A stretch of 64,000 nt of DNA from Hericium rajendrae (lineage: Eukaryota > Basidiomycota > Agaricomycetes > Russulales > Hericiaceae): positions 248,001 to 312,000 of the forward strand of contig CM065878.1 of assembly GCA_033439255.1 (NCBI GenBank). The letters are read 5' to 3'. The notes under the pieces were generated by a model. It saw nothing but the letters and a program-made list of their open reading frames with translations. It was not told the origin of the DNA and searched no databases. Of this stretch, positions 4,758-63,305 are shown piece by piece (positions within the stretch are counted from its first letter, which is position 1; each line of letters begins with the position of its first letter). Both the position numbers and the translations under genes were made by a program.

Positions 4758-5719
4758 ACTATGACCCTTCGGGCCGCATAAAATAAACACTTTGCGTGGA
4801 GTCGAACCAAAGACCAAAGGGATCAAGAGTACTGGTGTCCAAGGAGCGTGAACCACTCAGCCATACTGACTGATATTAGTGAGTCAATTGTATATCTAAT
4901 AAATAGCAGCAAGGTCTTCCAGGAGCACTGATCCATTGGTGGATCTGTACGGATCTTTGTGTCCTTTGCTGCATACGAGTAGGTACTATCGCACATCGTC
5001 TATCTATACAGATACATCGGTACATACGAATGTATCGGTATATACGACTACATAAATATACACGAATATATCAGTACTACATTTGTACATATGAATATAG
5101 CGGTATACGACTACATCGGTATACACAAATACATCAGTACTACATACAGATGTACTTGTAAATACAGCTTTACCTGTACAGACTGCTTCATCTGTACAAT
5201 GCTCAGAGTACGGCTTTATCGGTATTGTGTGTGTTACCGATCCCCTCATACCAGCGCCGTGCTGTGGTTGCCTTGTGGATCTCATTGATCACTTGTTGAC
5301 AAGCACTCAGTATCCGAACATGCGAATGAGATGCCCGTATACAATGCACTACAAGAAAGCGGGATAGCATTGCAAAGCACTGACAAAAGCCTGATGAAAA
5401 CAAAACAAGAACCATCATTTATATGTAATGCCCATTGTTCTCCTCATCCGCGAGTTGTCCTAGCCCACCTGCTGGGTGTCCTGATTGTCATCGCGGCCCC
5501 CTTACCCTTCAACCTCCTCCACTTCCTCGATAACCTGGAGGCCCCACGGCATCGCCAAAATCAGCGCACCAGGGTTCTCAGCCCTGATGTTGTCAACATG
5601 CAATCCGGTCGTTAATGTATGGCACTCACCATTCATCAATGCCATCGTCGATGCTGTCCTCGCTGCTGTCCTCACCGTCGTCCTCGCCACCATCCTCACC
5701 CTCACTGTCATCCTTGCCA
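4758..5719 (+). repeat. Left terminal inverted repeat of the KDZ element (first part)
   Basis: Complementary in order to 62343-63305: the ACTATGACCC tip, a tRNA-like unit, short tandem phrases rich in 'gtacagat/catcggta' (4980-5170), 'cattgatcacttgttg' (5282-5297), and a CCTGGAGGCCCCA segment near 5540. The target site of MULE2 (ATCCTTGCCA, 5710-5719) falls inside it, and the repeat resumes after MULE2 at 29529. ORFs here are shadows. Confidence 0.8.
4798..4868 (-). other. tRNA-like (Leu/Ser-type) A-box/B-box unit in the left KDZ TIR
   Basis: Read on the minus strand: A box TGGCTGAGTGGTTC (4850-4863) and B box GGTTCGACTCC (4798-4808), spaced as in a class II tRNA. The sequence that should close the acceptor stem does not pair, so this is tRNA-derived and not a working tRNA gene. 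The same unit sits in the right TIR. It could serve as an internal RNA polymerase III promoter reading outward (inference). Confidence 0.6.
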
Positions 5720-5960
5720 AGTGAATGCAATCCTCCCAACGCGTTTTCCTTCGCTTTAGGGCATGTGACCGACGCGCGTCGTCGCGCCTTCCTTTTTCGG
5801 CAGCGCGTCATGTTCCTCGCCTCTAGCAGGCTTTCAGCCACGTATTTCGCCTGTTTAAAATGTAATAAAATCGTATAAAATGGGAGAAAAATCGAATATG
5901 TTGAATAGTCGATTATGTAATCAGATATGAGTCAAACTTTGCAAGTGAGTACTGATTCAT
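5720..5960 (+). repeat. MULE2 terminal inverted repeat, left copy
   Basis: Matches the complement of 29288-29528 nearly throughout. This copy keeps several CpG sites (gacgcgcgtcgg-type on its complement) that are TG or CA in the other copy. Confidence 0.92.
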
Positions 5961-6003
5961 GATAGAAATCAGGATAATCTCTAAATGTCTATCTTCTCTA
6001 TAG

Positions 6004-6184
6004 CTAAGTCCTGTCACTAGGCCCTCTGATCTGATAACCCATAATGTTCCTAGCACTTCTGTTAGTAGAAGCATCAGTCCCCCAAGTATTTGGTCGAGTT
6101 CTTCCTGTTTCTTCTAGCTTTCGAATGTCTTCGACAAATTTTTCCACATCTCTTCCAAATCCTGGTCTTGTAATGTGAGAGAGG
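6004..6184 (-). pseudogene. MULE2 transposase, C-terminal piece
   Basis: Complement reads LEEMWKNLSKTFEKLEETG then RTRPNTWGTDASTNRSARN and IMGYQIRGPSDRT, ending in TAG at 6006-6004. This is the tail of the MULE2 transposase, cut from the rest by element A1 (6185-22982), across which the target AGG is duplicated. It shows what the C-terminus missing from MULE1 should look like. Confidence 0.75.
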
Positions 6185-6539
6185 CATCTGAGAAAAAGGA
6201 TTTTTATATAGCAGCAAGTCCTATTATAAGCCCTATCAATGAGCTATAGAGGCTATGAGGCAGAACTGTCTGGCTATGGAGAGCTATGAGAGCTATGATA
6301 GGCCCTATAGCATGAGGTGTCAAATACATAGGGTGTTACAGCCTCTATAGCCAGGGGTGTCAAATGTATAGGAGTATCATACTTACTTAAGGAAAGTATA
6401 GATACTATGGCTACTATATTCACTATTGTCAGCTAGCAAGGCACTCAAGATGTTGAAGCAAAAATTTTCTTATATTCAAGGTATACTACCACAGACAAGG
6501 GTACTACCACTAACTACCTAGTAGGTAACAACTCTGGGG

Positions 6540-8570
6540 CACAGGGGTACAGCCATGAGCGGGTAAGCGAGAACCTGCGTGAGCAGGCCGGAGGCATCGG
6601 ACAGGCGCGCACTGTCCGGGCGCGCGAGCGAGCACGGACAGGCGCGCACTCGTGCGGGTAAGCGCGCGCTGTCAGACGTGCGATTGCATGCACTCGGTGC
6701 GATGCGATGCTCGTGCATCGCATGCGGGATGGCATGCGCACGCTGGACGTGAGCGGAGCCGCTACTAAATTTATAACGACTACTATTATAATAGCCCAAA
6801 CCATGTAACGACAATAACTATTATGCACTAACAGCTCCTATTAGCCTTATAGCTTTATCTAATAGGGATTTCGTGGGGTGTGCGTGCGCACACGCTCTAT
6901 GCAATCAGGGCGATAATCTAATCTAATCTAATCTAATCCCCCGCCTCCCGCCCCGCGCGCTCGCAGCTATGCGCCCGCGCCTGCGGGCCCACAGAGGCAT
7001 GCACGCATAGTCGGGGCCTCGGTCCTCGTGCATAGTCGGGACCGTTGCTGCGTGGTCGCACGGCCGCCGAGACTCCTGCGCGTTGCTGCACAACACCCAC
7101 GCCGTCGCTGGGGCATTCCGCGGGCGGGTGCTGGCATTCAGCGCGGGTGCTGCGAGTGGGTGGGGGAAAAGGACAGCGCGCCGCCGTTGTTGCGTGACGG
7201 TCGTGGGTGTTGGCAGCGCGTATGGGCCCGCGCATGGCGCCGCGCACACCCAAGCGCGGGTGTTGGCCACGCGTCCATATCGTTGTACGCGGGTGTATAC
7301 GTGTCCGGGGGCGTGTTGTGCGCGCTTCTGCGCGTGTCGGACGTGTGTGGAGGTGGGCGGACGGCTGCGGTGGGCCGTGGAGGGCGTGGAAGGGCGGCGG
7401 AGAGGGCGGCGGATGCGGGTGACGGCGGGAAAAGGGTGCGCGCGGAGAAAGGGACGCGCGAAGAGCGAGGAAGCGGGCGAGTATGCGAAGAGGACGGGCA
7501 GGAGAGGGTGAGAGGCTGGAGAGCGAGTCGCGCACGAGCTTTGCCGCGGCTCGGAAACGGCCGAGCGGCGGTGGCTGAAAGCCCGAGAAGCCCGATCCTC
7601 GAGGAGAGGGTGCTGCACGATTTCTGCACGGTATTGTCCCTAAAGCTTAGTGTAGATGTGTACTTAGTACAGCCTCGTACATACACTAACATATGCCCCA
7701 ACTTATCTAAAAAACTGATGCCCCAGATACGACATTTCAAGCAATACAGAGCATTGTTAAAGCCAAAATAAGCGATTTATGTTAACCCTACAGTAACCCT
7801 ACCTCGTATTTCCTGTAGTATAGACTTCACTACAGCAAGTTCTGCTTATCTATCTGAGCGAAAAATATTATGTTCTTGTAAGAAATGTAAATACGAAGTC
7901 TGATATTTTTCGGACTTGATTTCAGAGCTTGAGGCCTGAAATACACACGAAATAACTGTTCATGGAGCCGAAAACACATGTATTTGATTAGATCTCAAAG
8001 AGCTAGGCTACTAAAATTTACCATAAAGTCGTAATACATACATAACATATGCCCCAACTTATCTAAAAAACCCGATACATGATAGGGACAAAATGTGCTG
8101 CACAATTGCAGCTCGAATCTGGTGCCCGGACAGCTCTCGACGCGTTCAGCATTAAGGACAAGCGCCGTACATTTGGTACGTGCTTATCTGTTTCTCGCCG
8201 ATTTCTCTCCTGCACTTCGTTCTATTCATACAGAACTTGGCATTTAATTTCATTATCACTACTATCTACATGTCATGTAATATTCGTACACTTTAATCGA
8301 ATTTATCTCGCATGCTCGGTGACATGTTCGGCAACTGCCGAACCGTGCCACAAGGCTCGGGTTGAGGCTCACCGTGTCCTCCTCTCATCGATCGGGTGCT
8401 CTTCGAGGCTCAAAAGCCCCTCGTTTGTACGTCGTTTTCTTCTTCTATTCGTTTTCTTACTGTTTCTAACTAAAATCTACTCATTTTAGCCTCACAACAC
8501 GTGCTCGACGGACGTCACCGCCGTCGACCCCCCTTCCTCGCGCTTCTAACTGCGCGCCCGACATCTTCCG
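6540..8570 (-). mobile_element. B4: partial family B element in reverse orientation
   Basis: Carries, on the complement, the family B AT-rich centre (7630-8480) with the TTCGGCAACTGCCGAA palindrome (8328-8343) and the GC-rich second arm (6540-7630). A ~29-bp phrase containing GCATGCGGGATGGC and TGCGCACGCTGGA stands at both 6720-6750 and 8570-8600, marking the limits of an insertion or a recombination. The first arm is short. Limits are approximate. A second internal repeat, 'atgccccaacttatctaaaa', occurs at 7693 and 8050. Confidence 0.45.
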
Positions 8571-8579
8571 CATGCGGGA

Positions 8580-9560
8580 TGGCGTGCGCACGCTGGAGAG
8601 GCCGTCCGGGGCGTCTGAGCGCAACCGGATCTCCCGCGGGTTTGCGCGCCGTGTACGGCCGTGTCCGAGCCTGTGCGGACGTGCGTGGCTGCACGGTCGC
8701 GTGTGTGAGTACGTGCGCGCGCTGGGAGGCCATTCGGCGCGCGCACAGCCACGTATCGTGTCCGCGGGCGTGCACGACCAGACCGCAGCGCGCACTGCAG
8801 CACGTGCGGCGAACGTGCGCAACGAGCACGCGCGCACGGTGAGCGCGTGTTGCCGACGGCGCGGGCGTGCTGGCGCGTACAGCTCATGTGGAGGGGTCGG
8901 GAATTGGTCATGTGCGTGCGAGGGGCACAGAGGGCGCGGCCGGCCGGGCAAGACGGCGACGAGGTGCAGCGGCGGTGGCGGTGTCAAGGAGATACGTGGC
9001 GGGCTCGCGAGTAGAGCGTGCGCGCTCAGTCGGGGCCTCACGCAGGCTTGCACACTGCGTCGCCATGCACGATCGCCATGGGAGGCGTGCATGCGCTGGC
9101 TAGGCCGTCTCACGGGTGTGCGTGGCTGGGCGCGCCTAGCCACGTGTCGTGGCCGCGGGCGTGTTGTCGATGGCGAGGAGGTGGTGGTGCGCGGGGTTGG
9201 TAAGTCTGGTGAGCCCGCACGGATCTGTTGAGGACATGCGGGTGTTGTTGAGAGGATGCGAGGGCGCGGGTGAACGACATCATGCCCCGTTGCCACGGCA
9301 ACGAGGCACGACGACGTGGACGCAGACGCCGTCGTCAGTGCACGGAGCGTGGGAGGTGGGAGGCGGGAGGCTCGTGGATGTGGACATGGATGTGGGCGTG
9401 GGCGTAGGCGTGGGGTAGGTGACGCACAGTGGGTCAGGGCTGCCGGCGACGTGTTTGAGAAGCGGGCGTTGCGCTGACGAGGCAGCGGAAAGAAGGCGAC
9501 ATGGCAGAAAGATGGCGACGGGGGAGGGGAAGTCGAGTGAGGCATCGCGGAAGTGGAAGA
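8580..9560. other. GC-rich core of A1; long open frames here are not believed
   Basis: Open frames of up to 425 codons exist on both strands because stop codons are rare at this GC content. The products are Arg/Ala/Pro/His-rich with no domain, and reading frames are not kept between copies of family A (compare 17230-18190, 24900-26040, 48900-50130, 58260-59230). The one conserved spot is the palindrome GTTGCCACGGCAAC at 9289-9302. Confidence 0.6.
9289..9302. promoter_or_regulatory. RFX X-box-like palindrome in A1
   Basis: GTTGCCACGGCAAC differs by one base from the perfect RFX-family site GTTGCCATGGCAAC. The same site stands at 25710-25723 (A3) and 41668-41681 (A5, ATTGCCATGGCAAC). Binding is inference. 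Confidence 0.45.
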
Positions 9561-9564
9561 ACGA

Positions 9565-9600
9565 GAGAGTATCGCTCGTTCTCGAACGGGCGATACTCTC
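9565..9600. other. Family A hairpin, A1 copy
   Basis: Inverted repeat GAGAGTATCGC ... GCGATACTCTC with an inner TCGTTC/GAACG(G) stem. On the minus strand it lies directly after a 45-50 nt intron-like segment (GTAAGT ... TACTAAC ... AAG, 9601-9647). Present in A1, A2, A3, A5, A6 and A7. Confidence 0.75.
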
Positions 9601-10029
9601 TTTGTTAGTATGAAGAATGCTAATAAAAAGTTTATTTTACTTACCTTGATCCCTCTTCGCCCTATCGAGACTCTCCTGCGTTCGATGCGACGAGTCAGTG
9701 AGTAGACTAGACGAACGGCGGAGGGATGAGAGGAGAGGAGGCTGGTGGTATGAGACAAGTATGAGTCGAACTTCGACGCGCCTTCGGTGCTTCAGCTACC
9801 GAACGCGCGCGAGTTCGAACATTTCGAGCCTGGTAAATCAAATAAAACACGATAAATTCTGAAAAAAAGAGAACATGCATAATTGATCTATTACATCGAA
9901 TTGGATGAGGTGAGTATCTAACTGAGTTACTATACTGGGTAACAAAGTGAACGTAGCAAAATCTGGCACTTAGCCTCTGACATGACTGCTCGGCAGCGAC
10001 CGGCCCGGTCTCGGCAGCCACATTTGGCG

Positions 10030-10060
10030 CTCCGCTCGCCATGTCTATATAAGGCATGCG
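10030..10060 (+). promoter_or_regulatory. TATA promoter of A1
   Basis: TCTATATAAGGCATGCGCGAC at 10043-10063, equivalent to CGTATATAAGGCTCGCGCGAC in A2 and A3. The DIRS-like element begins about 40 bp downstream, so transcription from here would now enter it. Confidence 0.6.
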
Positions 10061-10344
10061 CGACTCGCTTTCTCTCTCTCTTTCTGCTGCAAAAACCCAG
10101 TCGAGCTTGTGAGACGGAGGTTTTTGCGAGGGCTAGCTAAGACCAATAAGAAGTGAGGCAAACTGAGCGGCCCGCTCTAGGCTGACGCCCGCAGGAGGAG
10201 GAAAGAGCGGGACGTGCAGGAAGAGAGTTCCCACGCTCCTTCACTCCTCCTCCTGCCTCGTGTCGTGGTGCTGCACCCGACTTTTTTCATTCTCGTCTTT
10301 TTCACGCATACGATTTCATCGATCAACCATTCAATACACTCAGC

Positions 10345-12036
10345 ATGCCGGAAGGAACCACCATCGAGACTAATGGTACTGCCCTGCCTGATAGATCTTC
10401 CAGATCTCCCTCGGGATCTCCAGAACCTTCGCGACAGTCATCTCTGGAACAGAGCAACCACTCAACAACTCCACCGACTAACCCCATTCAGACTTTTATC
10501 AACACGCTCTCAGGAGCTTCTTTACCCGGTGGAGCCGGATCTTCTTCTTCGACACCACTCACACAACTTTTTAGTAATCTCCCAGCTGACCAACAGCAAC
10601 TAGTCAATAGTCCAACTCAATACCATTTTATTCACCCATTTTATTTGTCCTCCCTGACAACGAAGCAGTGATAGGCGACGAAGCGAGTCGCTTATGCAGG
10701 TGGAGATCGAGATTGCTGTGTGCTCCCTCTGACGATATTGAGAGCGGAACTTCTCCGATTTTCGAGTTTTCACCGCCAATTCAACATAGGAGCCATGTAG
10801 GACATTCTATGTCACTTGAGCTGATCGTCGTGGCGTAATCCAAGCTCATCCAGAGAGGAGAGCAACATCTGTGTCGGATCTGAAGATCGGCCTACTTTCA
10901 CGTATCGATCCAGCTCGCTTTTGCCGACATCCCTGACGAAATAAAATGGGCGAAATAAAATGGTATTGAGTTGGGCTAATATCTTGGCTTCTCACATGGC
11001 TTCCGAGTGCGTGGCTACACTTGCAGCATCTGGCGCTCTAGGTTCTGCCCCCTCCGCGATGCAGGCTCCCGTGACTACAGCGGCACCCGCAGCCCCGGCA
11101 CTCAGGATCTTAAAGGAATCTGACGAAACCGCCTTAACCACCATTGAGCGCCCGATCTCGATCCCGGAAGAGATTGGGACACTTTTCCAAGAGGGGATGT
11201 ATCTCCCAATCCATTTATTTACACGCGCCAATCTCCGCGTCATCACCGAGAATCGAAGCACTATGATGAAGAAGCACCGGATCGGCAACGGGAACACATC
11301 CCTGTTAGACTTCGGACACCCATCCCTAGGCAAGGAAATGGACCTGAACCTGGTGCTTTGGATGGAAGCTTGGGCGAATTATTTACTGTTCCTTGAATCA
11401 CACGCGGAACCTGCAGTTCAGGCACGCTGGCACCATCACCATGAGGCCCTATGCGCCAAAGAAGAATGTGACTTCGCCTTTCCCGCCATTCTCGCCTTCG
11501 ACATGGCTGAAAGGCGTGCTTACAATGAGCAGCAATTTACGCATGATGACACTCAGTGGAACTTGCGTTTCCTCGCAGAGATGAACAAGTATCATGATTT
11601 CGAGTTTAATCGACGCTTACAGGACTTCTCGAGGCGAGATGCTGGACACGTCCCTCGCGAACGCGTGGCCTCTTCGTCCTCCTCGACATCGTGTTTTGCT
11701 CCCTACGGCCGCGATCGTAATCAGCCCTTTTCCGCAGGCAAACCCCGCTCCTCGGCCACGGGGTCCTGCCTCATCTGCGATCGGCCAGGACACTACGCCC
11801 AGGATTGCAACCAGAAGACTACTGCCGGTCATCGCCCCGTCATTGCCCAGTTCGAAAAGAACCTTCCCCACATTCTCGTCGGCACCAAAGAAGACAAGCT
11901 GCAATTCTGCATCGGCTTCAACGTCGGAGGTCCCGACAAGTGCTGTCCTGGCACCCACGGCACCAATGTCAAACACGCATGTTCCATCTGTGGTGACCAC
12001 AGTCACCATGCCGGCGTCTGCTCCGTCACTGCTTGA
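10345..12036 (+). pseudogene. gag-like region of the DIRS-like element
   Basis: The stretch 10960-12036 encodes a 358-residue protein ending in a zinc knuckle, CLICDRPGHYAQDC (C-x2-C-x4-H-x4-C), and a further Cys/His cluster (CSICGDHSHHAGVC). Zinc-knuckle gag-like proteins bind element RNA. A short Ser/Thr/Pro-rich frame (10345-10671) lies upstream. Treated as part of a fossil element. Confidence 0.75.
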
Positions 12037-12946
12037 TACTCCCCATGCCAAACCACTATGCACACTCGCACCTCCGGCGGGCATCGATTCAGTTCCACTT
12101 CGCATGTCTCGCGTCACGTCTCTATCAGATTCTCTTCTAGACCGCATCGTCACCCCATACAATCCGGATGCTTTCGAATTTCTCCTATCGTATTTTGGTC
12201 TCCAAAATCAATATCCACATCTCGTTCATAGTCTTTGTAATGGCTTCTCCATTGGTGTCCCTGGCTCAATTCTTGCTGACTCAATTATTCCTCCCTATCG
12301 CCCATCCGAGCACGACGCCGCCATCGACGAGTACCTGGCAGACGAAGTAAAAGAGTCGCGCATGAGTGGTCCATTCTCGCGCGATGAGATGGAGGCTATT
12401 TGCGGAGGCGTCTTCGCGGCTTGTCCTGTCCATGTGGTCATCATGGTGGATGAGAACGGTCAGGTGAAGCGCTGCATTGTATGCAACATCTCACACAAAG
12501 GCGACGCCGGCTACTCCACCAACGACCTCGTCGATTCAGACGACTTTCCCACATGATGGGGTACAGCAGAAAAAATGGCGAAAATTGTGAGTGTACCTTC
12601 CGAGTCTCTGTTGACTCATTTATTATTTAGATATATCTTCATTTATTCTTTCCCCGACTCGCACGCGCATGGTCTCGAGGACCCTCTGCGTGCCTCTCCC
12701 TCCTTTCTCGTCGGGCGTGGATGTATGCATATGCGTACGGAGCCTAGTGTTTCACAAGGGTCATGGCACCATGGCGGGAGGCGTCCCAGTCACGGAAAAA
12801 TATTATGTCCAGCAAATTGCCGGAGTCGCATTGCAATAACTCCAGCAACTGGCAACTAGCCAGTTGCTGGACAAATTATATTTCCCTCTCACAAAGCAGC
12901 ACCGGGAGGTGCCGCGAAAACATACTATATTCCAGAAAAAACATAT

Positions 12947-12972
12947 CGGCTGAGATCATAAGGATCTTGGCT
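12947..12972. other. Family B small hairpin, B1 copy
   Basis: GGCTGAGATC ATAAG GATCTTGGCT: a 9-10 bp stem with a five-base loop, preceded by an A-rich AAAAAACATAT. Same place in B2 (38055-38077) and B3 (32300-32322). Confidence 0.6.
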
Positions 12973-13039
12973 GCAATCGCTAACCACCGCCGCGCGCTCG
13001 TCGCCCTCGGCTACGCTGCCGCACCCACTGGCACCCGCG

Positions 13040-13190
13040 GTCACTGCGCGCTTACCGCATCCCGCCGTGCTCGCTGCCGGCACTTACCGCGTCCCGCCGT
13101 GCTCGCTGCCGGTGCTTACCGCGTCCTGCCATGCTCGCTGCCGGTGCTTACCGCGTCCTGCCGTGCTCGCTGCCGGCGCTTACCGCTGCG
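13040..13190 (+). repeat. Minisatellite of B1, unit about 32 bp
   Basis: About four and a half units of GCTTACCGCGTCCTGCC followed by GTGCTCGCTGCCGGT, with C/T and G/A variation. It starts directly downstream of the small hairpin. Confidence 0.8.
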
Positions 13191-16100
13191 CGCCCGCCCC
13201 CGTGCACGCTTTTGCTCCCCGCGCTACGCGCGGTGCGCCTGCCACTCTCCGCCCACGCTACGCGCATGCCGCTGTGCATCCGTGCTCTTGGTCACATTCG
13301 GGACCGCCGCTCCGCGTGCGCCCCCGGCCTGCTGCTCCCCACCTACTGCGGGACCACCGCCCCGTGCATGCGGCCGGCCTGCTGCTCCCCGTGCGCGCTC
13401 CCCGCCCGTTGCGGGACCACCGCTCCCTGCCCGCCCGCGGCCTGCTGCTCCCATCCGCGCTCTCTGAGCGGACACGCGTCGCGCTCGGTCCCTTGCCACA
13501 GCTATACCCCCGTCGCATGCTCGCTGCAGAGCACATAAGCAGGGGCTCGGTGTGGAGCATGCATGCGCGCGGCTTGCGGGACATGGGCGTGGGTGGACGG
13601 GCATGCAAGGGGGATGTGACAGTGCGACACGGGCTCGGGCAGCTGTCGCGCGGGGTGTCGAGCATGCACGCGGGCTGTTGACCGTGCACACATGCAAGCT
13701 GTCTTGATTCACGCATGATGGTGTCAGAGCAGCCTCGAGGGCCACTGGTCGGCGGCGTACTGGCGTGCATGCAGCATGCCAGCACACGCAGGACGGGGCC
13801 AGAGATGCGAAGGCAGCAGGCAGGCGGGCATCCAGACAGGCGGCGGAGACGTGGGGGTTGGTGGGCGCGAACGCCTGCCATTGATGGTGATGGCAAGGCT
13901 CCGGATGCGCACGCATGCACGCAGTTGCTGGCGTATGCATGGCGGTGCGGGGGTCGACGCTGGGGTTTGCGCTGCGAACGCGCTTCCAACGTGCAGCGCA
14001 TTGGCATAGGGGCGTGGGTGCAGCGCCGCATCCGAGCGCGAGCGCGCAGGTGATGTCGAACGTGTGCTTGCGAGCGCGAGGGGAGGGGGATGTGCGGACG
14101 GGGGCGGGTGTCGTTCTGGCTGCGTGTGGCGCCACGTCAGCGCATTTGCGGGCTGAAATAGAAGATTTTGTCAGTAAACTACATAGATACAAGAATGAGA
14201 ACAAAGAACTCACGAGTTAGTGGGCTATTGAGCCCTACAGCGTCCCCGCTTGATGCAGGGAGGAGGAAGAGGAGATGCTCAGCCGCGAGCCTTGTGGCAC
14301 GGTTCGGCAATTGCCGAACGTGTCACCGAGATTCGTCGAAGACAACATTCCAGCCCCAATAAATTGTATTAAAGTCTACAAATATTGCAGTACATGTAGA
14401 TAGCGCTAATAAAACTAATTTCCAAGTTTTGTATGAAGTGAATGAAGTGCTGGAGAGCTATTCCCCAGACACAGATAAGCACGTACCCAAATGTATGGCA
14501 CTTGTCAATAATGTTCAACGCGTCGAGCTCGAATCGAGGTCTCGGGCACGCCGGACATCGGATTCGAGTTGCGATAGTGTAGCACTCCTTCCTCTGCCTC
14601 TATATCGGTATACTGTAGTAAATTGGGGAGTAAACTCTTAATGTAATGTGACTTTATTGTATTTTTGGCGTCTTCAGATCATTTGGATCTGGCTAAAGTT
14701 TATGTTTTTGGCTGGATCTCTGTGCGATATGAGCTGTATTTCGGGTCTCAAGCCCAGAAACCAGAATGAAAAAAATTGAAACTTCGTATATACATGACTA
14801 GCAGTACTAAAAACTAGTTCGCATAACTCAATGAGTCAAATCCTACGTGGTGAAACATGTAGGCCGAACAATGTGGCATTGGGTTACAGTAGGGTTAGTC
14901 TATTTTTGCTATTCTGGCTGTAATATTGCTTAAAACGCCCTTAAACTTAGCAAATGAATCGTATTCTATCGTACATACATACTCGTGGCACCATTACTAT
15001 CTAAACGCCTCCAGAACGTGTGTCCCAACGTTCCTCTTGTCGAGAGTCGGGCAGCTCGGGCAGCTCGGGCAATTTCGGCTATCTCCGAGCCGTGCCACAG
15101 CACGTACACGGCTCGTGCTACGGCCTGTCCCTTTGCACCCATACCCTCCTCCTCACCCTCCCTCCTCTTCGCGCACACGCGTTGCTACGCACTCTTCGCG
15201 CGCCTTGTCTCGCTGGCCGCGCGCCCTCCCCATTTCCCAACCCTCTCGCGCATCCGGGGTGCCATTCACGCCCCTCGACCACGCCTCGGCCCCCCAGCAA
15301 GCCCCGGCAGCCATCCGCACGTGTGTGCAGGCCTCCGCACATGCACGGACACGTACCAGATGCACACGGACGCACGCGAGACCCGCGGCGGCAGGCATGC
15401 ACGGTATAGCGTGTCCAGCACCCGGCCGGGCCATCCAGCACCCCGGGGCCTCGCTCAACACCGGCACCGGAGTCTCAGCACGCGCGCGAGACACGCAGCA
15501 CCTATGCGGGATGCCCGGAGATCCACGTGCGATGCCCCAGCAATGGCCTGCGTGCCCCAGCAACGGCGCAGACCTCCCAGCAACGGCGCAGGCACCCCAA
15601 CAATGGCGCATGGCTCCCAGCACCGTGCTGCATACCGAGCACCCACACCGCACGCCAGCACCCACGCCGAACGCCCAGCACCCCCGCGCACTACCCCTAC
15701 AACGGCGCACGTGCCCAGCGACGGCGCGCGTGTACCTGAGCTCGCCCCCCGCGCCCGCAGTGTACCCTCGCGTCGCAGCAGCGATGACATCGGCAACGCC
15801 AACGGCGTTGATGACATGCACCGCAGCATTGCGTGCGCAGGATCAAACGATGGCGGCGACGAGTGGCGGTGGGAGGCGGGCGCGTGTGTAGCCGAGGCGG
15901 GGGCGGGAGGCGGGCAGCGCGCTCATTCGCGTAGCCGAGGTCGGGGCGCTGTGCATAGCTGAGGTGGGAGGTGGTGCCGAGCAGGGGCGGAACGGTGCCG
16001 AGGTGGGGCGGGCACGGTTCCGAGCCGATCTGATGTAGTAAGCACGCGATAGGAGTAGTGTACGGCCCGGTAAGCGGCCCCGAGTGACATTATAGTACGG

Positions 16101-50605: not shown

Positions 50606-50613
50606 GTATATAA
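50606..50613 (+). promoter_or_regulatory. TATA box of A6
   Basis: TATATAAG in GGGATTCGTATATAAGGCTC, followed by CCATCTTGCTCTTTAACCCC. Confidence 0.65.
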
Positions 50614-51060: not shown

Positions 51061-51239
51061 AGAAGTTTTCTTAATGTCTAGTATCTATATAATGTAGTGT
51101 AGTAATGTATTGTGATGTTGTAGTTAGTAAATAAAATTTTTATTTGCACTTAAATTTTATTATGATGAATCTAATTGTGTTGTGCTATAATGAAGTTTTA
51201 TGTTCTAGTTAAACTGCAAATTTACATGATAAATATACT

Positions 51240-52491
51240 TGGTGGAAGAGGGCCAATGCTGTGCATGGCAAAACGATTCCTTTTTTTTTATCATCAATGA
51301 AGCTATATAAATTACCATCATGTATGGCCATGTACAGGTATACTGACATCTTGCATGCAGGCCTGTACCTCATGTCTTATACTTGGCATGTAGCATTGTG
51401 CTGGGGCCAGTGCCTCATGCATGCCTGCTACACCTCATGCCAGCTCACTATGCCTCATGTTCACTGGTCACACCCTATGCTGATCTACCACATCTCGATG
51501 TACCTTGTGGATGGGCCAGTGACAGCTTAGAGATGACTACAGCTGAATGTGAGCATGTCAGCCAGCATAACTATATACATGCATTGTGTGTTGCTATGTG
51601 CAGGTGTGTCACCTGCCTGTACCTTGTGCCTCATGCCTCATACACAGACATACCAAGCCATGCATAGGCTTAGTGCCTTATGCATGCTCATCATGCTACA
51701 CTACATCTTGCATACAAGCCACCATCCTATAGATGCTTACTGTACTTCATGTACAGGCCCACAGCATCTTGACACTCTGCACATGCTTGCAGCATCCTGT
51801 GCATGGCCACCACACCCTGTTGATCTCCTGTACAAGCTAGTAGCAGCCTTACATATGGGCCTGTATGCCTTATGCTCACCCTCTATGCCTCATGCATGGC
51901 TCTCAATATCTCACACATCCTCACTGCACATTGCATCTTATATATAGGCCCACTACAGCTTAACATTGGTGAGCATGGCCACTGGACCTCCTGCACAGCT
52001 ATGACACTTATCATGCCTTGTGCATGAACCTAGTGCCTTATGCACATATGTACTTTTGTTGTGCCTTACCAGTGCACACATGCCTGCACATAGCTCTACC
52101 TGTACATGATGTGTACCATTGTGCATGTGTGCACTGTTTGAACTTGTAATATACTTGATTGTACTAGTAGCTATATGAAATATAATTGATTTTGGCTTTA
52201 TATCTCTTGTACCTGATTGATCTGAGACAGTACTAATAGCAGAGATCATAGTAGGGACCATATAGATCAGAGCAAGCCTTTGAATTTATATGATTTGTAC
52301 AACAACTATAGCTATCCTTCAGAAACATGTAGCACTATATAGTGTCCAACTACTGTTATGATAGCTATGATAGGCCTCATAGTCTTACATAGTTGAGAAC
52401 TGTGGTGGCATAAATAGTGATAGACCTTATAGTGCTATGATAAAACATATAGATCAATACTGGGCTATATGAAATTTCAATTTTTCAGATG
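51240..52491 (+). mobile_element. CpG-poor repeat debris ending in a lone family A right end (A9)
   Basis: 51240-52250 is full of CATGC, CCTCATGC and TGTGCATG phrases with almost no CG, as expected of an old GC-rich A or B core after CpG loss. 52260-52491 is an AT-rich arm with GCTATGATAGG repeats ending AATTTTTCAGATG. No left end found. Frames here have no recognisable product. Confidence 0.45.
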
Positions 52492-54840: not shown

Positions 54841-54844
54841 CAAA

Positions 54845-55675
54845 GCTAATGACCAATCACGTGATCAATAGCAGACCTTGTTCGGCCGCACAAGGTCTGG
54901 TGGCTGTGCTTAGCTTATGTCAGCAGTAGTTGATGTTGCGCTCTCTGCTTTCTCTTCTTTTCTTCAGATAGCTTTGAAGTCAGTGTGATACTACCAGTAG
55001 TGCACACTAACTACAAGGCTTGGACACGCCCAGTTCCCATCTACAGTGAGTTGCGGCTGAGGTGTCCAATGATGGTGTAGGGCCATCACCAACTTTTTGG
55101 ATCTCTTCTGATGATGTGGCATAGAGATTGCACCATGGCCCTCTCAATACCACATGAATCAGAATGAGTGAAAGCTTGTTGGAATCAGATTTAGAATAGC
55201 TTTAGAATAGTGCCATAAACAGCAAGATAGCATGGCAAAATGCTGATCTATTGAACTATATGTCCGTGATGATGTGGCAGACTAATTGCTTTATAGCTCT
55301 GCTGATACTGCATCAATCATAATGTATGAGGGCTTATTGAAATTGGATTTACAGTAGCTTTCTAACAGTATAGTTTACAACATTATAGCACCACTTGTTG
55401 TTGAGATAGGAGACAATACTCTTTTGCTGATGTGGCACATAAATCGAGAAATATCTCTGCTTGGAGTGATCCGATTTTCATATTCTAAATTGGGTTGGAA
55501 AGATGTGATCAAACGTATTTGAACACAATTTACCGTTTGTCGATTGATTGCTTCGTTGCAGAGCTATAAAGCAATCACTGTATACAGTGTATTGGCTCTG
55601 TAGGCAACTTATGCTTATGTAAGCGGGCGCTAAGACCTTGTTCGGCCGCACAAGGTCTTGTAGGATCACATGACC
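54845..55675. mobile_element. Possible small non-autonomous element with duplicated 26-bp palindrome
   Basis: The palindrome AGACCTTGTTCGGCCGCACAAGGTCT split as AGACCTTGT/TCGGCCGC/ACAAGGTCT stands at 54873-54898 and 55633-55658. Outside them lie TCACGTGATC and, inverted, GATCACATGA, so the two ends are inverted relative to each other. About 0.8 kb, no coding. Probably a MITE-like unit; no target duplication identified. Confidence 0.45.
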
Positions 55676-55799
55676 GACTCTCAGGACCCACTGCTACCGA
55701 TAAATTGCATTTTTTGCTCATTTTATCAATAAGCAGTATGTACATTTGTTTCCTGTGTATCATTTTAGTGGCTGTATCTTTCTATAAGCAGTAAATTGT

Positions 55800-56350
55800 G
55801 TTAGAGACCAGCTTTCTGGTATATTTGGATGCATTTGAGAACAAGTGAATCAGTTGAGTACTGATTAAGTTAGCTGGAGTTCAAGCATTCTAGGGGAAAA
55901 TGTAGAAACAATTTGCATTCTGCGAGTTTTGCACCGATCCTAACGCCTAAGGTACCGTCAGAAAGCTATCAATAAGTAGATTCTGATGCATTTTAGAACG
56001 AGTAAATTGGTTGAGAATTGGCCTAGTTAGCTAGGGTTCAAGCATTTTAGAAGAGGAAAAAAAGAAACACTTTGCATTCTGTGAGTTCTTAACCGATTTG
56101 GATGCATGAAGTATGGTAGCAAAGCTATAAGTGAGTAGATTTAGACGCATTTGAGAACGAGTAAATCGGTGAAGAATGGACTGAGTTAGCTCAAGTTCAA
56201 GTGTCATAGAGGGAAAATGTAGAAATTCATTGCATTCTATGAGTTCTGCACAGATCAGGGTGCAAAAAATACTATCAGAAAGCAATAAATGAGCAGATCC
56301 AGATGCATTTGAGAACAGGTGAATTGGTTGAGAACTGATCAAGTTACATT
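55800..56350 (+). repeat. Satellite-like array, unit about 158 bp
   Basis: The phrase GCATTTGAGAAC or GCATTTTAGAACG recurs at 55831, 55988, 56147 and 56305, that is every 157-159 bp, with GTAAATTGGTTGAGAA, TAGCTxGxGTTCAAG and TTTGCATTCTGTGAG following in each unit. Roughly 3.5 diverged units. Stretch is CpG-poor. Confidence 0.8.
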
Positions 56351-56364
56351 AAATCAAGAAAGTT

Positions 56365-56440
56365 TGGCCAGAGCTGGAGTTGAACCTGCAAACTCGTTAG
56401 ATTGAAGATATGTGATTATATAAGCCAACTGCCTAATGGG
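56365..56440 (-). other. tRNA-like sequence with B box
   Basis: On the complement, A-box-like TTAGGCAGTTGG and B box GGTTCAACTCC with a near-perfect T-arm (GCAGG/CCAGC) lie ~50 nt apart, ending TCTGGCC. The anticodon arm and 5' acceptor strand do not fold, so this is a decayed tRNA or tRNA-derived SINE end. Confidence 0.4.
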
Positions 56441-57586
56441 CATAGTCATCGTTTTGGTGTCGTTTTCACTATGAAAAGGCGGTATAGAGTAAACGATTCT
56501 AAGGAATCGTAATAATATACAGATAGTACATAGTAAGCTAATATAGTATAGACAAGGTAAGCTTTATAGTGTACATATAATACATATTGAGCCAGCATAG
56601 TATAGATAATATAGTCTTTGTAGTCTTTGTAGCAGAGTTAGACTACATAGCTCTTATAGCTAAGCCTATAGCTCTATAGCTATCATAGCTACCCTTGTGG
56701 CTCTATAGCTATCATAGCACTCTATAGCTATCTCTAATAGCTATATAGCACTATATAGATTAGGGCTCTCTATGGCCAGATATATACAAAAGAGGGTAGC
56801 TATGGAGTTATGCAACCTATATAAGATATAAAGCTCTCTATAGCTACCCAAAATTTCTCAGATGATTTATAAAGGTAAGCTTTTATTTCCTATCTCTTAT
56901 ATCTTATGCTCATGCCTTTTATTTCTTAATACAGTACTGTTGTATGCTTACTAGATGCTTTGTTAATGCCTTCTTATACTGATGTCTTGAATTGTTATGT
57001 AGGATTTTGCTTTTTTATTATGTTGGTAAGACTTTGTATATTACCTTTGCTATCTTTAATACTAATATCTTCTTTTCTTATTTATATTTTCGCTTTTTGT
57101 AGTCATTGTAGGCATGTTATGTTTTGTAGTTATCTCTGTAGCTTTTGTAATATTTTGTAATAAAATTTATGGAATGTATAATGTTTTTCAACTTTAAATG
57201 GTTGTGACTATAAGATATAAGATTATTGGTCAATAATATTTTTTTATTACATGCTAAAACAATATAGTTGATAGAAGTAACATAGAGTGAATAGAAATCT
57301 TATTAGCTAGATACAGTATTATAATAGTGATATAATATGTAGTTGACATAGCTTATATAGCCATCTTATACTATAATAGCTATGATAGCTATGATATCTT
57401 ATACTCTATGCTATAGCAGCTATATAGCTTAGGCCCTATGCTATGGTAGCTATGACAAGCAATGATAGCTATACATAGATTACTTGACTGCTATGAGACT
57501 GCTATGTAGAAAAGAGGACAGCTATGGACCTAGGAAAGCTATATAGCCTACATAGCCTTATATACCAGTGGTAAATTTCTCAGATG

Positions 57587-57887
57587 CTGAGGAACCATTG
57601 GCAGGAGGAGATCAACCTTTTGGAAGAGGAAATGGCACGTATTGTATGATACTTCTATTACTTTATGAATCTTTGGCATGGGTGCACCGAGGGTCACAAT
57701 GAGGCAGGAGAAACAGCATTGGTGGCATATGCACGAAAGTGAGTATATATGCCATTGACGGTTGCACCTCTAACTTGTGATGGGAAAAACAGGCAGGCAT
57801 GGCAGCATCGTCAACTCTACGATCAGAGCGTCGGGCTATTCATGTTGGTAATTGGCATGCTGTTGCTATAGATTGGGAGGTGATGTA
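57587..57887 (+). pseudogene. KDZ transposase, C-terminal region (second piece)
   Basis: Continues the KDZ gene after A4: NHWQEEINLLEEEMARIV, YFYYFMNLWHG, ETALVAYARK, a clean 54-nt intron (GTGAGT...CTAAC...ACAG, near 57738-57791), then QAWQHRQLYDQSVGLFMLVI. This is the usual KDZ ending (AYAxRQAxxxxxLxxxF). TGA at 57647-57649 for a likely Arg. A7 begins at 57888. Confidence 0.8.
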
Positions 57888-59241
57888 CATCTGAAAAAAC
57901 CAAATTTTATATAGCTGCAGGTTATGTTATGGATGCTATCACAGAGCTATATAAGCTATATACCTTGCTTATCTAGCTATATAGCACTATGAGAGCCTTC
58001 ATAGCTTCCATAGCTGATAGTACTAGCTATGTAGTGCTACCATAGCTTTCATAGCTAGTAGTGTGAACTATATAGTACTATCATACTTACCAAGGTAAGC
58101 TATAACTACTATTAAGGCTATCATGACTATGTCAAGTGGACAAAGCATTGCAAAATTACAAGTCAAAATTGATCATATTTTATCTACTACTATTACATTT
58201 GGTAGTACTATAACTACAACTGCATAATTTGCAGTTCACAGCAGGCCAGTCTACAAGGTGTCAGAGACCTGCGTGAGGCATCGGTGGGCAGTACAAGGTG
58301 CGTCGTGCATGCGCAAGGCACGCACAAGGCACGGCACGGACGGATTCGTACGTGAGGCGGCCAGGGGTGGCGGCGGATGAGGACATGTGTGCGACGTGAT
58401 GGGGCGCATACGCAAGGCACGCGTGGATGGGGTGGTGGGTGCACGAGGCTCGAGAGGTGGCACGCGGCGGCGCGCGGGGCGTGGCGGCAGTGGGCGGGAG
58501 GCATGATGGTGGTGCGCAGGAGTTGGGGACTGCGCGAAGGGCGATGGGGTGCGCGCAATGCGGCAGACCTGCGTGCACAGCGCAATGGCCGCGCATGAGG
58601 CCCGGGCGTGTGCGTGGTAGTCCACGTGCTGGTGGGGCCCGCGCCATGCGGCGGGCCCACGCACAGGAGATGCGGCGTGTAGAGTCCATGCGTGACTCGC
58701 AGGGGCCATACGTGGGGCGCAAGGCTGTGCGAGGCACGACAAAGGCCCCGCCTGCGCACGACATGGCAGGCCCATGCACTGGAGCCAGACGCGGGAGGCA
58801 ATGGGGCATGTGCGGGGCACAGCAGGCATGCACGAGGCCGCAGGCCCGTGCACAATGCGCGAGGGGCGTGCTCCCCAGACTATCGTGGGCCCGTGCGTGA
58901 GGCATCGGGCTACCGTGATGCACTGGACCGCTGCAAGAAGCGGCGGGGACGTGCATGGGGTGCGGTGGGTGGCAGGCTCGTATGTGAGTCCTCAGCCTGC
59001 GGTAGGCCTATGTGCGAGGCACATGGCCTTGGGCGGGAGAGCGGGCGGGCAGAGCCCGATGTGCATGTGTTCGTTGGCGTGCCTGCACTCCGGTGGTGGT
59101 GGTCGATAGAGGCGGTGCGGCGTGTGCTGGTGACGTAGCGGCGAGGCGGCGAGGCGGCGAGGCAGCGAGCTCGGAGGGGCATGGGGTGATGGAGGAGGGA
59201 CGATGGGGGGTTGAGGACGGGTGCGGGAGGATGAATTTGTC

Positions 59242-59273
59242 GAGAGTATTGCTCGAATTCGAGCGATACTCTC
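59242..59273. other. Family A hairpin, A7 copy
   Basis: GAGAGTATTGCTCGAA TTCGAGCGATACTCTC: one C-G pair has become a T-G (U-G wobble) pair. Confidence 0.8.
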
Positions 59274-59690
59274 TGCATGAGCAAGCATACGAAATAAAAG
59301 GGGTTTTTTTACTTACCTGTGTCCCTCGGCTTTCTACACGTCCCTCTCCGATGTCCGATTCGATGATCAAAAGGAGGGAAGCAGGAGAGAGGAGGGAGGA
59401 GGAGAGAGGAGGAGTGGGGAGTGGTAACTTAGCAGAGAAGAGTCGAGACGAAGTTCAATGCAATTCGGTGCATCAGCCACCGAACGCGCGCGAGTTCGAA
59501 TATCTCGAACTTAACAAATCGAGTAAAATCGAATAAAATTTGAAAAAAAGATGAACACTACAATGTACTTATAGAATACAATTGAGTGAGACAGATATCT
59601 AGTTAAGGTACTACAAGCTACTTGACAGTGACATGAACTTAGTGAGGTCTGCGACTTAGTCTCTCTCACGGCACTCGGCAGCGCCCGGCC

Positions 59691-59957
59691 TGACCACATT
59701 TCGGGCTCCGCTCGCCACATCTACATAAGGCTTACGCGATGTGCGACCTCTCTTTCTTCTCAACTACTATCATCTCTCGTCTTTGCGACTTCTCTCTATT
59801 ATCCTTCGACATCTTGTTATCTTTGACCACATTTCGGGCTCCGCTCGCCACATCTACATAAGGCTTACGCGATGTGCGACCTCTCTTTCTTCTCAACTAC
59901 TATCATCTCTCGTCTTTGCGACTTCTCTCTATTATCCTTCGACATCTTGTTATCTTT
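59691..59957 (+). repeat. Perfect 133-bp tandem duplication of the A7 promoter
   Basis: Units 59691-59823 and 59824-59956 read the same: GACCACATTTCGGGCTCCGC ... CTACATAAGG (weak TATA) ... CATCTTGTTATCTTT. No mismatch seen, so the duplication is much younger than the element. Confidence 0.9.
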
Positions 59958-60607
59958 GGTAAGTCCTTTATATTGTTGTGTTCTTATTATCACTAATATG
60001 AGTTATCTTATCAGGATATTTTCGCTTTTTTGTATGTTTACTTGTAAGTTTAATGTTTCTTAACTACAACTTATACTAATCTTATGTTTATTGTAGAACT
60101 ATTTTTCGCTTTTTAAAGACTTTGTTGCCTTGTATGTTTGATTAACAAAGACTTATGGAACTTTGTAGAGTAGTATATAATTTGTGTAGTAGTGTTTCTT
60201 GGAACAAATATAGTCTTATAATTTTCGATGTTTTGTCTATTTTAAAACTAAGAGATCTTGTAAGTTATGAGACCTACAAAATGCTTGAGTATATTATAAT
60301 AATTGTGTAGGATGTCTAATATATATATCAAGAAGAGAAGATGTAGTATAGATAGTCAACATAGCTTTGATAGGTCCATAAGGTAGGATAGTATATATAT
60401 AGTCCATAGTTGACATAGCTGTCCTCTCATGCTATGATAGCTATGATAGCTACACCCTTAAGCTATGACAGCTATGGCAGCTATGATAGCTCTATATAGA
60501 TGATCCTGCATCTATGGCTAGGCTATATATAAAAGGACACTGCTATGGACCTATCAGAGCTATGTAGCTGATATAGCTCTATATAACAGTGGTAATTTTT
60601 TCAGATG

Positions 60608-62342
60608 TACATTAGCGGGATACTGAGGTATTGTTTGCATAGACAGGCTGGATCTTGGAGATTCTCATGTGATAGTCAAATAGATGGATTCCATATTCGG
60701 ACCCATGAGCTTCGCCACCACCCCGGTAGGCTAAGTTTGCCTGAGATGCTGGTGTAAAATGCTCAATGAAATTTCTTCAGTGCTCTTATTTCTCTGGCAT
60801 GTCACATTTGGAGAGCATCATGGGCCAGTTTATGGTTATCTCACGCATGAAGAGTGCGCAAAAGTGCACTGACAAATATTCCACCGTGTGTGTCTGCCAT
60901 TGAATCTGCCAAAGCTCCCCCTCCATTGTGTCGCTTTCCTGCCACTCCTCCATGTGCTCATGGCTGGCATGTCATCCAAGCTGTGCCTCACTGTGCCAAG
61001 GGGAGCAAGTGACTGTCTGTCTGTCCACGCAGTGTCAGTGAAGAACAGGCGACAGGTGAGGGCACACTAGACCAAGTGGCATGTATCGATGAGAAATTGC
61101 TGGAGGTATCCCATGTCAATGGAGGACCATCTGTCCTGTGCGCAGTCAGTCAACAATACAATGGAGAAGTTATGGAAGACAGCGAGCCCCAGAGCGAGCC
61201 TAGAAGATCGTGATGGAGTGCTTGACAGCCTAGCAGCCATCCTCGGGCAGAAGGTGGCTGCTGTCTTGTGGCACGTGGTCACATGAGGCAGGCCACACAT
61301 GTCAGAGGAATTTGGGAACAGCGACAAGGATTTTGTGATGGGGCAAGCCCCATCTGTACCAGTCAGTCGCAGTGTCCATCTGAGCGGTCGTGCTGACAAG
61401 CTTGATAGTGCTTGTCTGCGTTTGGGGTAATGGTGTTCACGATGAGTATTGCGGTAGTCATGAGACCACGACACTGCTCATCTGGATGCTGGTGACAGGC
61501 ATGGGGTTGGCCTTGATCTCATCAAGCTCGATCATTAAGGAAGTGGGATATGATTCTGGGGAGTCGTGGCACTGTGGATCACAAGCATGCAGCCTGGCAT
61601 ACTGGAGGATAAGCACTGCATCACTGCAAATGAGCCTGTATTCACCTGTGCACATAGCAACAACCATTGAACATCGTGCAGTTGTCATTGGGCATGCACA
61701 ATGAGGACTGGTCCGAAGGCTTGGTGATGATGGAGGAATGGATAGTGCTGCCTGGAGATGGGCCTGCGTGCTGTGTCAGGGTGAATTGGGAGGCATGATT
61801 GGATAGCAACGCCAGAGGGTGAGCCAGCAAACGTGGAATGGGCCATGGCAGCAGATCGGGGAGGACAAGTTTGAGGAGTATGATGGACCAAGTCAGAAAG
61901 TATGCTCCACGATCTCACGCAGAGAATGTGGTGATCAGGGTTGAGTTCTTGGAGCACGCACAATATAATGAATATTACAGACCACAATGGCTAGATGGTA
62001 CGGACAGAAGTTGCTCTCACTGGGTTGGGAAAGTGAGTGAATGGGTGAGCACCGTTCTAAGGCTGCATTTGTGTTCATTTGCTGAGTCGTATTTGAAATC
62101 TTGTTTCCAGTGCCTGACCACACTACTGACAACCACCAACACCCACTAGGGACCACAAACCACTCCTGACCATGTGCTTCCAAGTCCTCTATTCCATCCT
62201 CGCCCATTCTATCCTCACCGTCGTACATTGCCTTTGCACAAAGTTTGATTGTGCACACCACAACGACAGAGATAGGAATCCCAACGTGCTGGTAGACATA
62301 GGACCGATGTGAGTTATAGTTGACCTTTGGCGAAGGCAGAGG
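60608..62342. other. Interior of the KDZ element after the transposase gene; gene not recognised
   Basis: Frames of 60-135 codons on both strands (best minus 61067-61474 and 61458-61688, plus 61089-61286) but no motif I can name. A plus-strand stretch reads GPVYGYLTHEECAKVH (near 60825). Family known: KDZ elements of basidiomycetes often carry TET/JBP dioxygenase genes, but I do not see the HxD iron motif here, so I make no such call. CpG-poor, as expected of the oldest layer. Confidence 0.3.
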
Positions 62343-63305
62343 CTAATTTTGGTAGTGTGCTGATGACAATAATGCCTTGGGGTCTCGAGGTCATCGAGGA
62401 GGTTGATGAGAGCAATGCGGAGGATGGTGGCAAAGGCAACGAGGATGGCGAGGAGGACGGCATCAATGATGGGTGAGTGTCATACTCCAACAAGCAGATC
62501 ACATGTTGACAACAACAGGGCTGAGAACCCCGGCACGCTGATTTCGACGATGCCATGGGGCCTCCAGGTTATCAAGGAAGTTGACAAGGTTGAGGGATAA
62601 GGTTGCAGCAAGGACAATGAAGAGAGTTAGCAGGTCGGCCTGGATGACTTGCAAATGGGGAGGAGGATGCGAATGGGCTATACATAGATGACTTTGGATT
62701 TGTTTTCTTGTTCTCTTTTCCTTAGGCTGTCGTTTGTCCTTGCAATGTCACTTTGTGTGTTGAAACACATTGTAGGTGGATATATTTTCTATATGTTCAG
62801 GAACTGACTGCCTTCCCAACAAGTGATCAATGAGAACCACATAGCAGTCACAGCATGACACTGATGCTGAGAGATTGATAACATGCACGATATGCTACTG
62901 AGGTATTCCTAGCTGAGTACAAATGAAGCTGTATGTACAGATCAAACTGTATGTACAGATACAGCTGTATGTACAGATGAAGCTGTATGGATGGATGTGT
63001 TCGTATGGATGGGTGTATCTGTACTATGGACAGGTGTATCCATACTATGGATGGATCTCCACAAAAGTGCCTATGCAGCAAAGAAAATAAAGAATCATAG
63101 AATGTACAAAGAGGTATAATAAAGTATACATATTGCTCCGGGGGGGGGCTTGGCTGCTACATATATAACATAAACTTGAATAGAATATATCAACCAGTAT
63201 GACCGAGTGGTTTAAGCTCCTTGGACACTAGTACTCTTGATCTCTTTGGTCTTTGGTTTGACTCCGTGCAAAGTCTTTATGTTATGCAGCTCGAAGGGTC
63301 ATAGT
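62343..63305 (-). repeat. Right terminal inverted repeat of the KDZ element
   Basis: Complement of the left TIR in order. Includes the short tandem GTATGTACAGAT units (62925-63010), the CATTGATCACTTGTTG complement (62819-62834) and the tip ending GGGTCATAGT at 63305. Fewer CpG sites than the left copy in places. Confidence 0.8.
63195..63272 (+). other. tRNA-like A-box/B-box unit in the right KDZ TIR
   Basis: A box TGACCGAGTGGTTT (63200-63213) and B box GGTTTGACTCC (63255-63265), mirror of 4798-4868. Acceptor stem absent. Reads outward, toward 63305. Confidence 0.6.

Follow-up and report, generated by a model that had tools for sequence, protein, structure and literature searches.

Several described systems come close to the locus reported here, a nest of mobile DNA in a dead KDZ-type transposon of the basidiomycete Hericium rajendrae. 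In the available parts of the work on plant long terminal repeat (LTR) nests (PMC6911290) and on TinT, 'transpositions in transpositions' (PMC3014933), the order of insertion is taken from which element interrupts which. The same logic is used here, but the layers are mostly DNA transposons of several superfamilies and not LTR elements or Alus, and the empty sites come from one genome. The repeats of Marasmius oreades (PMC8290104) are similar in that KDZ and Plavaka are among the leading DNA elements and repeats cluster regionally; unlike here, the covered parts of that paper contain no dissected nest. Among the literature on nested transposons, covered with the exception of most subscription journals, we found no dissected nest this deep in a basidiomycete, and we claim no priority.

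The families concerned have known marks. The accessible part of PMC12730594 describes Kyakuja elements with a 7-bp duplication, CA..TG ends and no inverted repeats, PlavakaB elements with 2-3 bp duplications and CATCA..TGATG ends, and fungal KDZ families that carry a TET/JBP gene. In the accessible part of PMC3783388, a methyltransferase and the repeat type separate DIRS (inverted repeats) from Ngaro (A-pol-B-A-B).

We analysed a window of 64,000 nucleotides (C1:248001-312000) in the 5.3-Mb contig C1 of this genome (46.77 Mb, 19 contigs). Positions without a contig name are those of the window, C-numbers denote contigs, and L-numbers (L009-L046) denote other copies or relatives from the same genome.

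Architecture of the nest

We found that one dead transposon, the outer element, hosts at least 18 other pieces of mobile DNA over ~60 kb, in up to five layers (Table 1). Between 3803 and 63305 (59.5 kb), the summed remains of the outer element amount to ~5.58 kb and the insertions to ~53.9 kb. The pieces form two five-layer chains plus side branches. For 14 of the 18 named inserted pieces, both ends were found along with either matched duplications or a clean empty site. Element ends, target duplications, most of the empty sites and a CpG-biased decay are seen directly, and we are almost certain that the nest is real, well preserved and built by successive insertions. It is ordinary in kind and unusually legible, and every classified element belongs to a kind already known in fungi; X and the 788-bp element are left without a class. 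The order yields relative ages within a branch but none between the two branches.

A preliminary description of this stretch, made from its letters, had proposed a nest that can be peeled in order of insertion, and empty sites in the same genome bear this out for most joins: they were found for MULE2, A1, D, B1, A2, A4 and B2, with that of A3 weak. The first proposed chain (KDZ > MULE2 > A1 > DIRS-like > B1/A2) was confirmed at each step by target duplications, which D lacks, and by host copies without the insertion. In the second (KDZ > A4 > hAT1 > A5 > B2, where that A5 is A6 in the present naming and our A5 is a different element), duplications and empty copies establish KDZ > A4 and A6 > B2, and paralogue collinearity establishes A4 > hAT1 > A6. 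The pairings had been attributed to matched ends and duplications; this holds for most of them, but the left duplication of hAT1 is imperfect (TTCATG versus TTCATATA) and D has none. The figure of ~53 kb of insertions was close, while the supposed ~5-kb element proved to be ~5.6 kb of remains of a truncated relic. Insertions beyond that description are the 788-bp element, the solo Copia LTR, the A8 fragment, B', hAT2, A7, A5 and X.

Since the layers are multicopy and some are ~100% identical (X), which is where assemblers err, repeat copies from several places could have been joined into an apparent nest. However, the nest sits within a 5.3-Mb contig, and the 9-bp duplication of MULE2 is matched across 23.8 kb, with the host resuming at the base predicted by empty copies, which would be unexpected from wrong joins. 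Together with the 7-8 bp duplications of B1 and hAT2, this argues against misassembly, which we consider highly improbable. By themselves, target duplications of 2-3 bp are weak evidence.

Table 1. Positions and ends of the outer element and the pieces inserted in it (window coordinates; TIR, terminal inverted repeat)
Element	Type	Host	Position	Strand	Ends, duplication and remarks
Outer element	KDZ-type DNA transposon		3803..63305	-	collinear with L009/L010 and the longer C8 and C5 copies (L011-L018)
788-bp element	TIR element, unclassified	outer element (left end)	3953..4740		ends CACGGCCAAGTGG...CCACTTGGCTGTG; TA duplication
MULE2	Mutator-like element	outer element	5719..29528	-	9-bp duplication ATCCTTGCC
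A1	A-family	MULE2	6185..22982		ends CATCTGAGAAA...TTTCTCAGATG; duplication AGG
D	tyrosine-recombinase retrotransposon	A1	10085..22168	+	target duplication absent; a single C is shared across the join
B1	B-family	D	12778..16211		ends GAGGCGTCCCAG...CTGGTG; 7-bp duplication ATGGCGG
A2	A-family	D	16864..19500		ends CATCAG...CTGATG; TA duplication
A3	A-family	MULE2	24500..27369		TT duplication
Solo LTR	Ty1/Copia	outer element	29747..30209	-	5-bp duplication ATTAG
A8	right-end fragment of A-family element		30283..30714		orphan end at internal deletion join of outer element
A4	A-family	outer element	31897..57586		CT duplication; empty in L010, L014, L018
B'	B-family	A4	32105..34460 (right limit approximate)		only CACCAG end present
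hAT1	hAT	A4	34467..44548	-	right duplication TTCATATA, left imperfect TTCATG
A6	A-family	hAT1	36685..43103		CA duplication; reversed relative to A1, A3, A4
B2	B-family	A6	37853..41432		7-bp duplication ACGGCGT/GCGGCAT
hAT2	hAT	A4	44673..48412	-	perfect 8-bp duplication CTCATCGT
A7	A-family	A4	48510..56864		ATT duplication
X	unclassified	A7	51237..56512		5.28 kb; no coding domain, TIR or duplication found
A5	A-family	outer element	57888..60607		TA duplication

The outer element is a truncated relic

The outer element was delimited with shorter copies from the same genome (L009, C8:2237 kb; L010, C4:3512 kb) and longer ones (C8:353-394 kb, C5:67-88 kb), which align with the window in separate pieces. 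The surviving pieces lie at ~3803-3952, 4741-5718, 29529-29746, 30215-30282, 30715-31896, 57587-57887 and 60608-63305. Its termini had been placed at 4758 and 63305, and neither is a terminus: the true left end is 3803, with the terminal repeat running left past 4758 behind the 788-bp insertion, and the right side is broken off at 63305, within the terminal repeat. The KDZ domain PF18758 was found in the longer copies (C8:388871-389200 and C5:85770-86099), just upstream of the piece that matches window 30715; the segment encoding it has been deleted from the window copy between 30282 and 30715. Because its right end is broken off and the KDZ segment is missing, the outer element of the window is a truncated, internally deleted relic and not an intact ~5-kb element.

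Other copies retain their target duplications, namely TCAAAAC (7 bp) in L009, GAAGACAT (8 bp) in L010 and GGCAAAA (7 bp) in the C8 copy. The latter is a second nest, with ends ~41 kb apart and GGCAAAA on both sides. The copies at C8:353-394 kb and C5:67-89 kb (L011-L018) are broken up by different insertions. L009 and L010 were considered as a single insertion duplicated together with its flanks, and this was rejected as the flanks differ, indicating independent insertions. A TGTGTGG-like possible right partner for the left flank of the outer element was too short and simple to be counted. The C4 copy L010 may split a host gene, with open frames on both flanks that we take, by eye, to be an NmrA-type NAD-dependent oxidoreductase.

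Several insertions lie directly in the outer element. The site of the 788-bp element is uninterrupted in L009, L010, L011 and L016. The solo LTR is absent from L011 and L016, and L010 does not contain the site; a full Copia element, L036, carries RVT_2 (4.5e-76) between two LTR copies. A5 and A4 are each absent from the three relatives listed (L010, L014, L018). A perfect 133-bp tandem duplication lies within A5 at 59691-59958.

The first chain: MULE2, A1, D, B1 and A2

MULE2 has long terminal inverted repeats with 94.6% identity in a 258-base alignment, and its empty site is clean in L011; L010 and L016 are consistent with this, in a degenerate repeat stretch. A duplication of ~9 bp is expected for Mutator-like elements (MULEs), and MULE2 has both this and the MULE transposase domain PF10551 (8.5e-11). 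A1, within MULE2, is cleanly absent from two of the three MULE2 relatives that hold the site (L021 and L023), and L022 is rearranged. It contains a B-related GC-rich block at ~6.55-8.58 kb, the ends of which are unsettled.

D is absent from all six A1 relatives (L026-L031), two of which, L026 and L027, appear to be duplicates of a single locus. The empty site reads CTCTCTTTC|CTACC in five of these relatives, and L031 differs at a few bases. B1 and A2, both within D, are absent from the only D relative fetched, L025. A2 is present at 90-96% identity in at least 11 full-length places (39 of 1028 candidates scored). A separate copy of A3, the second A element in MULE2, has the same bounds at C6:2287309-2290248. 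Another member of the MULE2 family lies immediately to the left of the nest, at 1-3429 (plus L019 from 9274), and its terminal repeats at C1:247274 and window 3429 are 97% identical over 170 bases.

The second chain: A4, hAT1, A6 and B2

The empty site of A4 is CCCTGAGG in L010, L014 and L018. Near its left end A4 carries B', whose end is also found in L018, L029 and L039; its other end was lost when a deletion beside hAT1 took part of this B-type element. The left flank of hAT1 is B'-side sequence ending TTCATG, close to the right flank TTCATATA, as would be expected if hAT1 had entered B' and not A4 directly, giving KDZ > A4 > B' > hAT1 > A6 > B2, six layers deep. However, three A4 relatives (L046, A3 and A7) hold TTCGTATATAAGG at the matching place, so the right duplication of hAT1 is A4's own sequence. 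We regard the six-layer order as unlikely and place hAT1 directly in A4.

The A6 site in hAT1 is read through by the paralogue hAT2, with 61% identity overall. The halves of the B2 duplication are identical at 5 of 7 positions, and both differences are transitions. The empty site of B2 was clean in one (L041) of three relatives; L042 and L043 are rearranged.

The preliminary description had also stated that genes of the outer layers resume across each insertion. This is so at the DNA level, while domain matches lie on one side only in MULE2 (27539-27943) and in hAT1 (PF05699, 9.5e-9, at 34806-35183), and none for KDZ was found among the outer-element frames scanned. An open frame of L010 crosses the A4 site; its transposase nature was judged by eye, with no Pfam match.

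Side branches in A4 and element X

An 8-bp duplication is typical of the hAT family, and the duplication of hAT2 is perfect. hAT2 carries the hAT dimerisation domain PF05699 (9.2e-16) at 44890-45384 and has ~98% copies at C1:311892, running on into L020, and at C1:578373-582103. The former begins at the right edge of the window (63892-64000) and is a third hAT there. A4 aligns across hAT2 and A7 with L046, A3 and A7, through a low-complexity stretch with length differences.

X, within A7, is present at ~100% in at least 11 other full-length places and at 96% in three (18 of 1418 candidates scored); it is free of substitutions relative to L037 and has two relative to L040. Its ends are uniform (ACTTGG...CGTAA), with an 18-nucleotide hairpin just inside the 3' end, and of the 14 copies in which the 3' motif could be located, 12 have a T directly after the 3' end of X. 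A 10-nucleotide match between the 5' part and a hairpin arm is weak (E 0.066). A Pfam scan of 47 frames of at least 45 amino acids gave four matches to unrelated families (best E 0.0038), which we take as chance. With low confidence, we suggest that the nest may still be growing and that X, its youngest layer, is unclassified mobile DNA, perhaps an unusual Helitron2-like or recombinase-mobilised non-autonomous element. X is the part of the nest most worth following.

Classification of the layers

The outer element resembles the KDZ group of PMC12730594, as far as that source was accessible, in the KDZ domain of its longer copies, in the 7-bp duplication of the C8 copy, as for Kyakuja, and in its CA start. 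It has duplications of 7-8 bp and starts with CA but ends CGCCTC; unlike the Kyakuja elements described there, it has long terminal inverted repeats, and the window copy lacks the domain. The B ends (CACCAG...CGCCTC) resemble those of the outer element (CAAAGGCTGCAG...CGCCTC). B duplications are 7 bp in B1, B2 and L039, and none matches in L018; no B protein was found in the frames scanned. The B elements may depend on KDZ.

All seven A elements with both ends have a duplication of 2 or 3 bp. In the available part of PMC12730594, PlavakaB shares this duplication length and the exact CATCA..TGATG ends of A2, whereas A1 and A3-A7 have CATCTGA or TATCTGA variants (CATCTGA..TCAGATG), and the scanned frames yielded no transposase. 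The A left-end pattern occurs 163+155 times in the genome, versus 0 and 0 for a reversed control. A Pfam scan of 54 frames from the A, B and edge regions (50 of them A- or B-layer frames, out of ~195 of at least 60 amino acids) gave no A or B transposase and one match (E 0.0042), taken as chance. The A elements would be at most a non-autonomous Plavaka relative. In 44 further frames (D, outer element, MULE2, hAT, left edge) Pfam gave one hAT match; the others were weak (best 0.0079).

The hAT domain is present in both hAT1 and hAT2, and RVT_2 between the LTRs of L036 together with ATTAG at the solo LTR identifies a Ty1/Copia element.

The motif R, HxxR, Y denotes a tyrosine recombinase. In D, the recombinase lies at 20448-21743, and R240, H361, R364 and Y395 are each conserved in 15 of the 17 sequences of an alignment that comprises the window copy, L025 and 15 loci picked from 34 matches. 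An RNase H-like stretch at 19891-20451 was judged by eye. The motif residues and the lack of a target duplication place D among the tyrosine-recombinase retrotransposons, and to that extent the earlier label 'DIRS-like' stands; features separating DIRS from Ngaro were not found where searched. No methyltransferase was found among four L025 proteins, and a comparison of end pieces gave no terminal repeats; visual inspection alone suggested a short inverted similarity close to the ends (GGCTAGCTAA). L025 has a zinc knuckle (PF00098, 5.6e-4, just under its cut-off), and its RNase H-containing protein gave a sub-threshold Pfam match only (PF00336, E 0.036). As far as PMC3783388 was accessible, D resembles the fungal Ngaro/DIRS elements in the gag zinc knuckle of L025, the RNase H-like stretch, the recombinase and the missing duplication; it differs in that neither a methyltransferase nor terminal repeats of the inverted or split direct type were detected in the pieces searched.

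CpG decay and the order of insertion

CpG transitions dominate the differences of hAT2 and A2 from two near copies each (66/82, 48/61, 48/62 and 52/61). The share is lower in pairs of the solo LTR (4/8, 8/15, 7/14) and of the outer element (64/88, 67/104, 119/412, 25/50). The bias may be caused by methylation. In recent copies (hAT2, A2, outer-element pieces) CpG transitions occur in all four 5' base contexts, as expected from methylated-CpG deamination.

Raw CpG observed/expected was rejected as an age ladder: X, the youngest layer, is second lowest (0.26), and only the 432-bp A8 is lower (0.00). Composition is thus misleading, and CpG retention against relatives was used instead. Twelve layers were entered. 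A4 and the solo LTR (at most 12 relative CpG sites per comparison), A6 versus L040 (none), the B-related block of A1 (uncertain position in the nest) and, as no relative was compared for them, hAT1, A7, B1, A8 and the 788-bp element were excluded.

The outer element has retained the least CpG (0.28-0.42), and hAT2, A2 and X the most (0.85-1.00). Retention fits the order in 15 of 19 enclosing/enclosed pairs, and 17 of 21 when hAT1 is counted inside B' (1204 of 20000 label shuffles as good). D and A3 break the nest order at 0.57, perhaps because their relatives, ~10% diverged outside CpG, share a common ancestor older than the insertion. The CpG clock is weakly compatible with the insertion order and adds little, because 1922 of 20000 shuffles do as well as the 15 agreeing pairs.

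Evidence against successive insertion

Several observations weigh against the proposed nest, its order or the naming of its layers. hAT1, X, B' and A8 (4/18) fall outside the set with both ends plus a duplication or empty site; the left flank of hAT1 is damaged and its duplication imperfect, and X has no empty site. For the outermost layer no duplication can be checked, because the right end is gone. None of the window's outer-element frames scanned gave a KDZ match, so the KDZ assignment comes from the longer copies. A3 has a weak empty site, since the MULE copy at the window's left margin shows 53% identity within ±120 bases of it. In the MULE2 relatives L021, L022 and L024 the missing stretch (23853-28315) is larger than A3, so they provide no test of it. 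The D recombinase gave no Pfam match and no PDB match (two D-family proteins, E up to 1), and its single-sequence structure model was unusable (mean predicted local distance difference test score 35). Four of the 19 pairs (MULE2/A1, MULE2/D, MULE2/A3, A1/D) have a CpG retention contrary to the order, and the fraction of shuffles that do as well counts on the same side.

Recombination or block transfer between repeats, a segmental rearrangement, could also have built part of the nest. Deletion joins occur at 30282/30715 of the outer element, with an A-end fragment, and between B' and hAT1, and the right end of the outer element is broken. However, rearrangement accounts for these trimmed edges only, and the 14 of 18 pieces described above have both ends with a duplication or a clean empty site. 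We consider such an origin improbable, and successive insertion is retained.

Proposed history and genome context

We propose that an old KDZ-type transposon entered a repeat-rich part of a basidiomycete chromosome. After losing the transposase segment and one of its ends, it would have served as a landing pad. Later cut-and-paste insertions would each have made their usual duplication (9 bp for MULE, 8 for hAT, 2-3 for the Plavaka-like A elements, 7 for the KDZ-like B elements). A Copia integration (5 bp) would have been reduced afterwards to a solo LTR, and D would have entered by tyrosine-recombinase integration without duplication. Insertions into insertions would have given the two chains and the side branches. 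Such dead DNA would be under no selection against insertion, which may be the reason for the nesting: the nest would grow, be trimmed by deletions and decay largely at CpG.

Six kinds of element (KDZ, MULE, hAT, Plavaka-like, tyrosine-recombinase retrotransposon, Copia) can be placed in an internally checked order of insertion at this locus, and the same genome contains most of the host copies needed for verification. A ladder of this type can be used to calibrate decay clocks and shows which families moved after which. It leaves the knowledge of how transposons work unchanged.

The locus had been called fungal, which fits the genome-wide content of 172 KDZ matches, 46 TET/JBP matches (not all above the curated cut-off), an abundant Plavaka-like terminus and eight fungal-peroxidase-extension matches. 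This content is consistent with a wood-decay basidiomycete. The matches also suggest a putative, recently amplified KDZ family carrying a TET/JBP gene. Several TET/JBP matches have a KDZ match 2-3 kb away, for example at C1:138455/140570, C8:692159/695395 and C5:103394/106630, with sets of identical scores.

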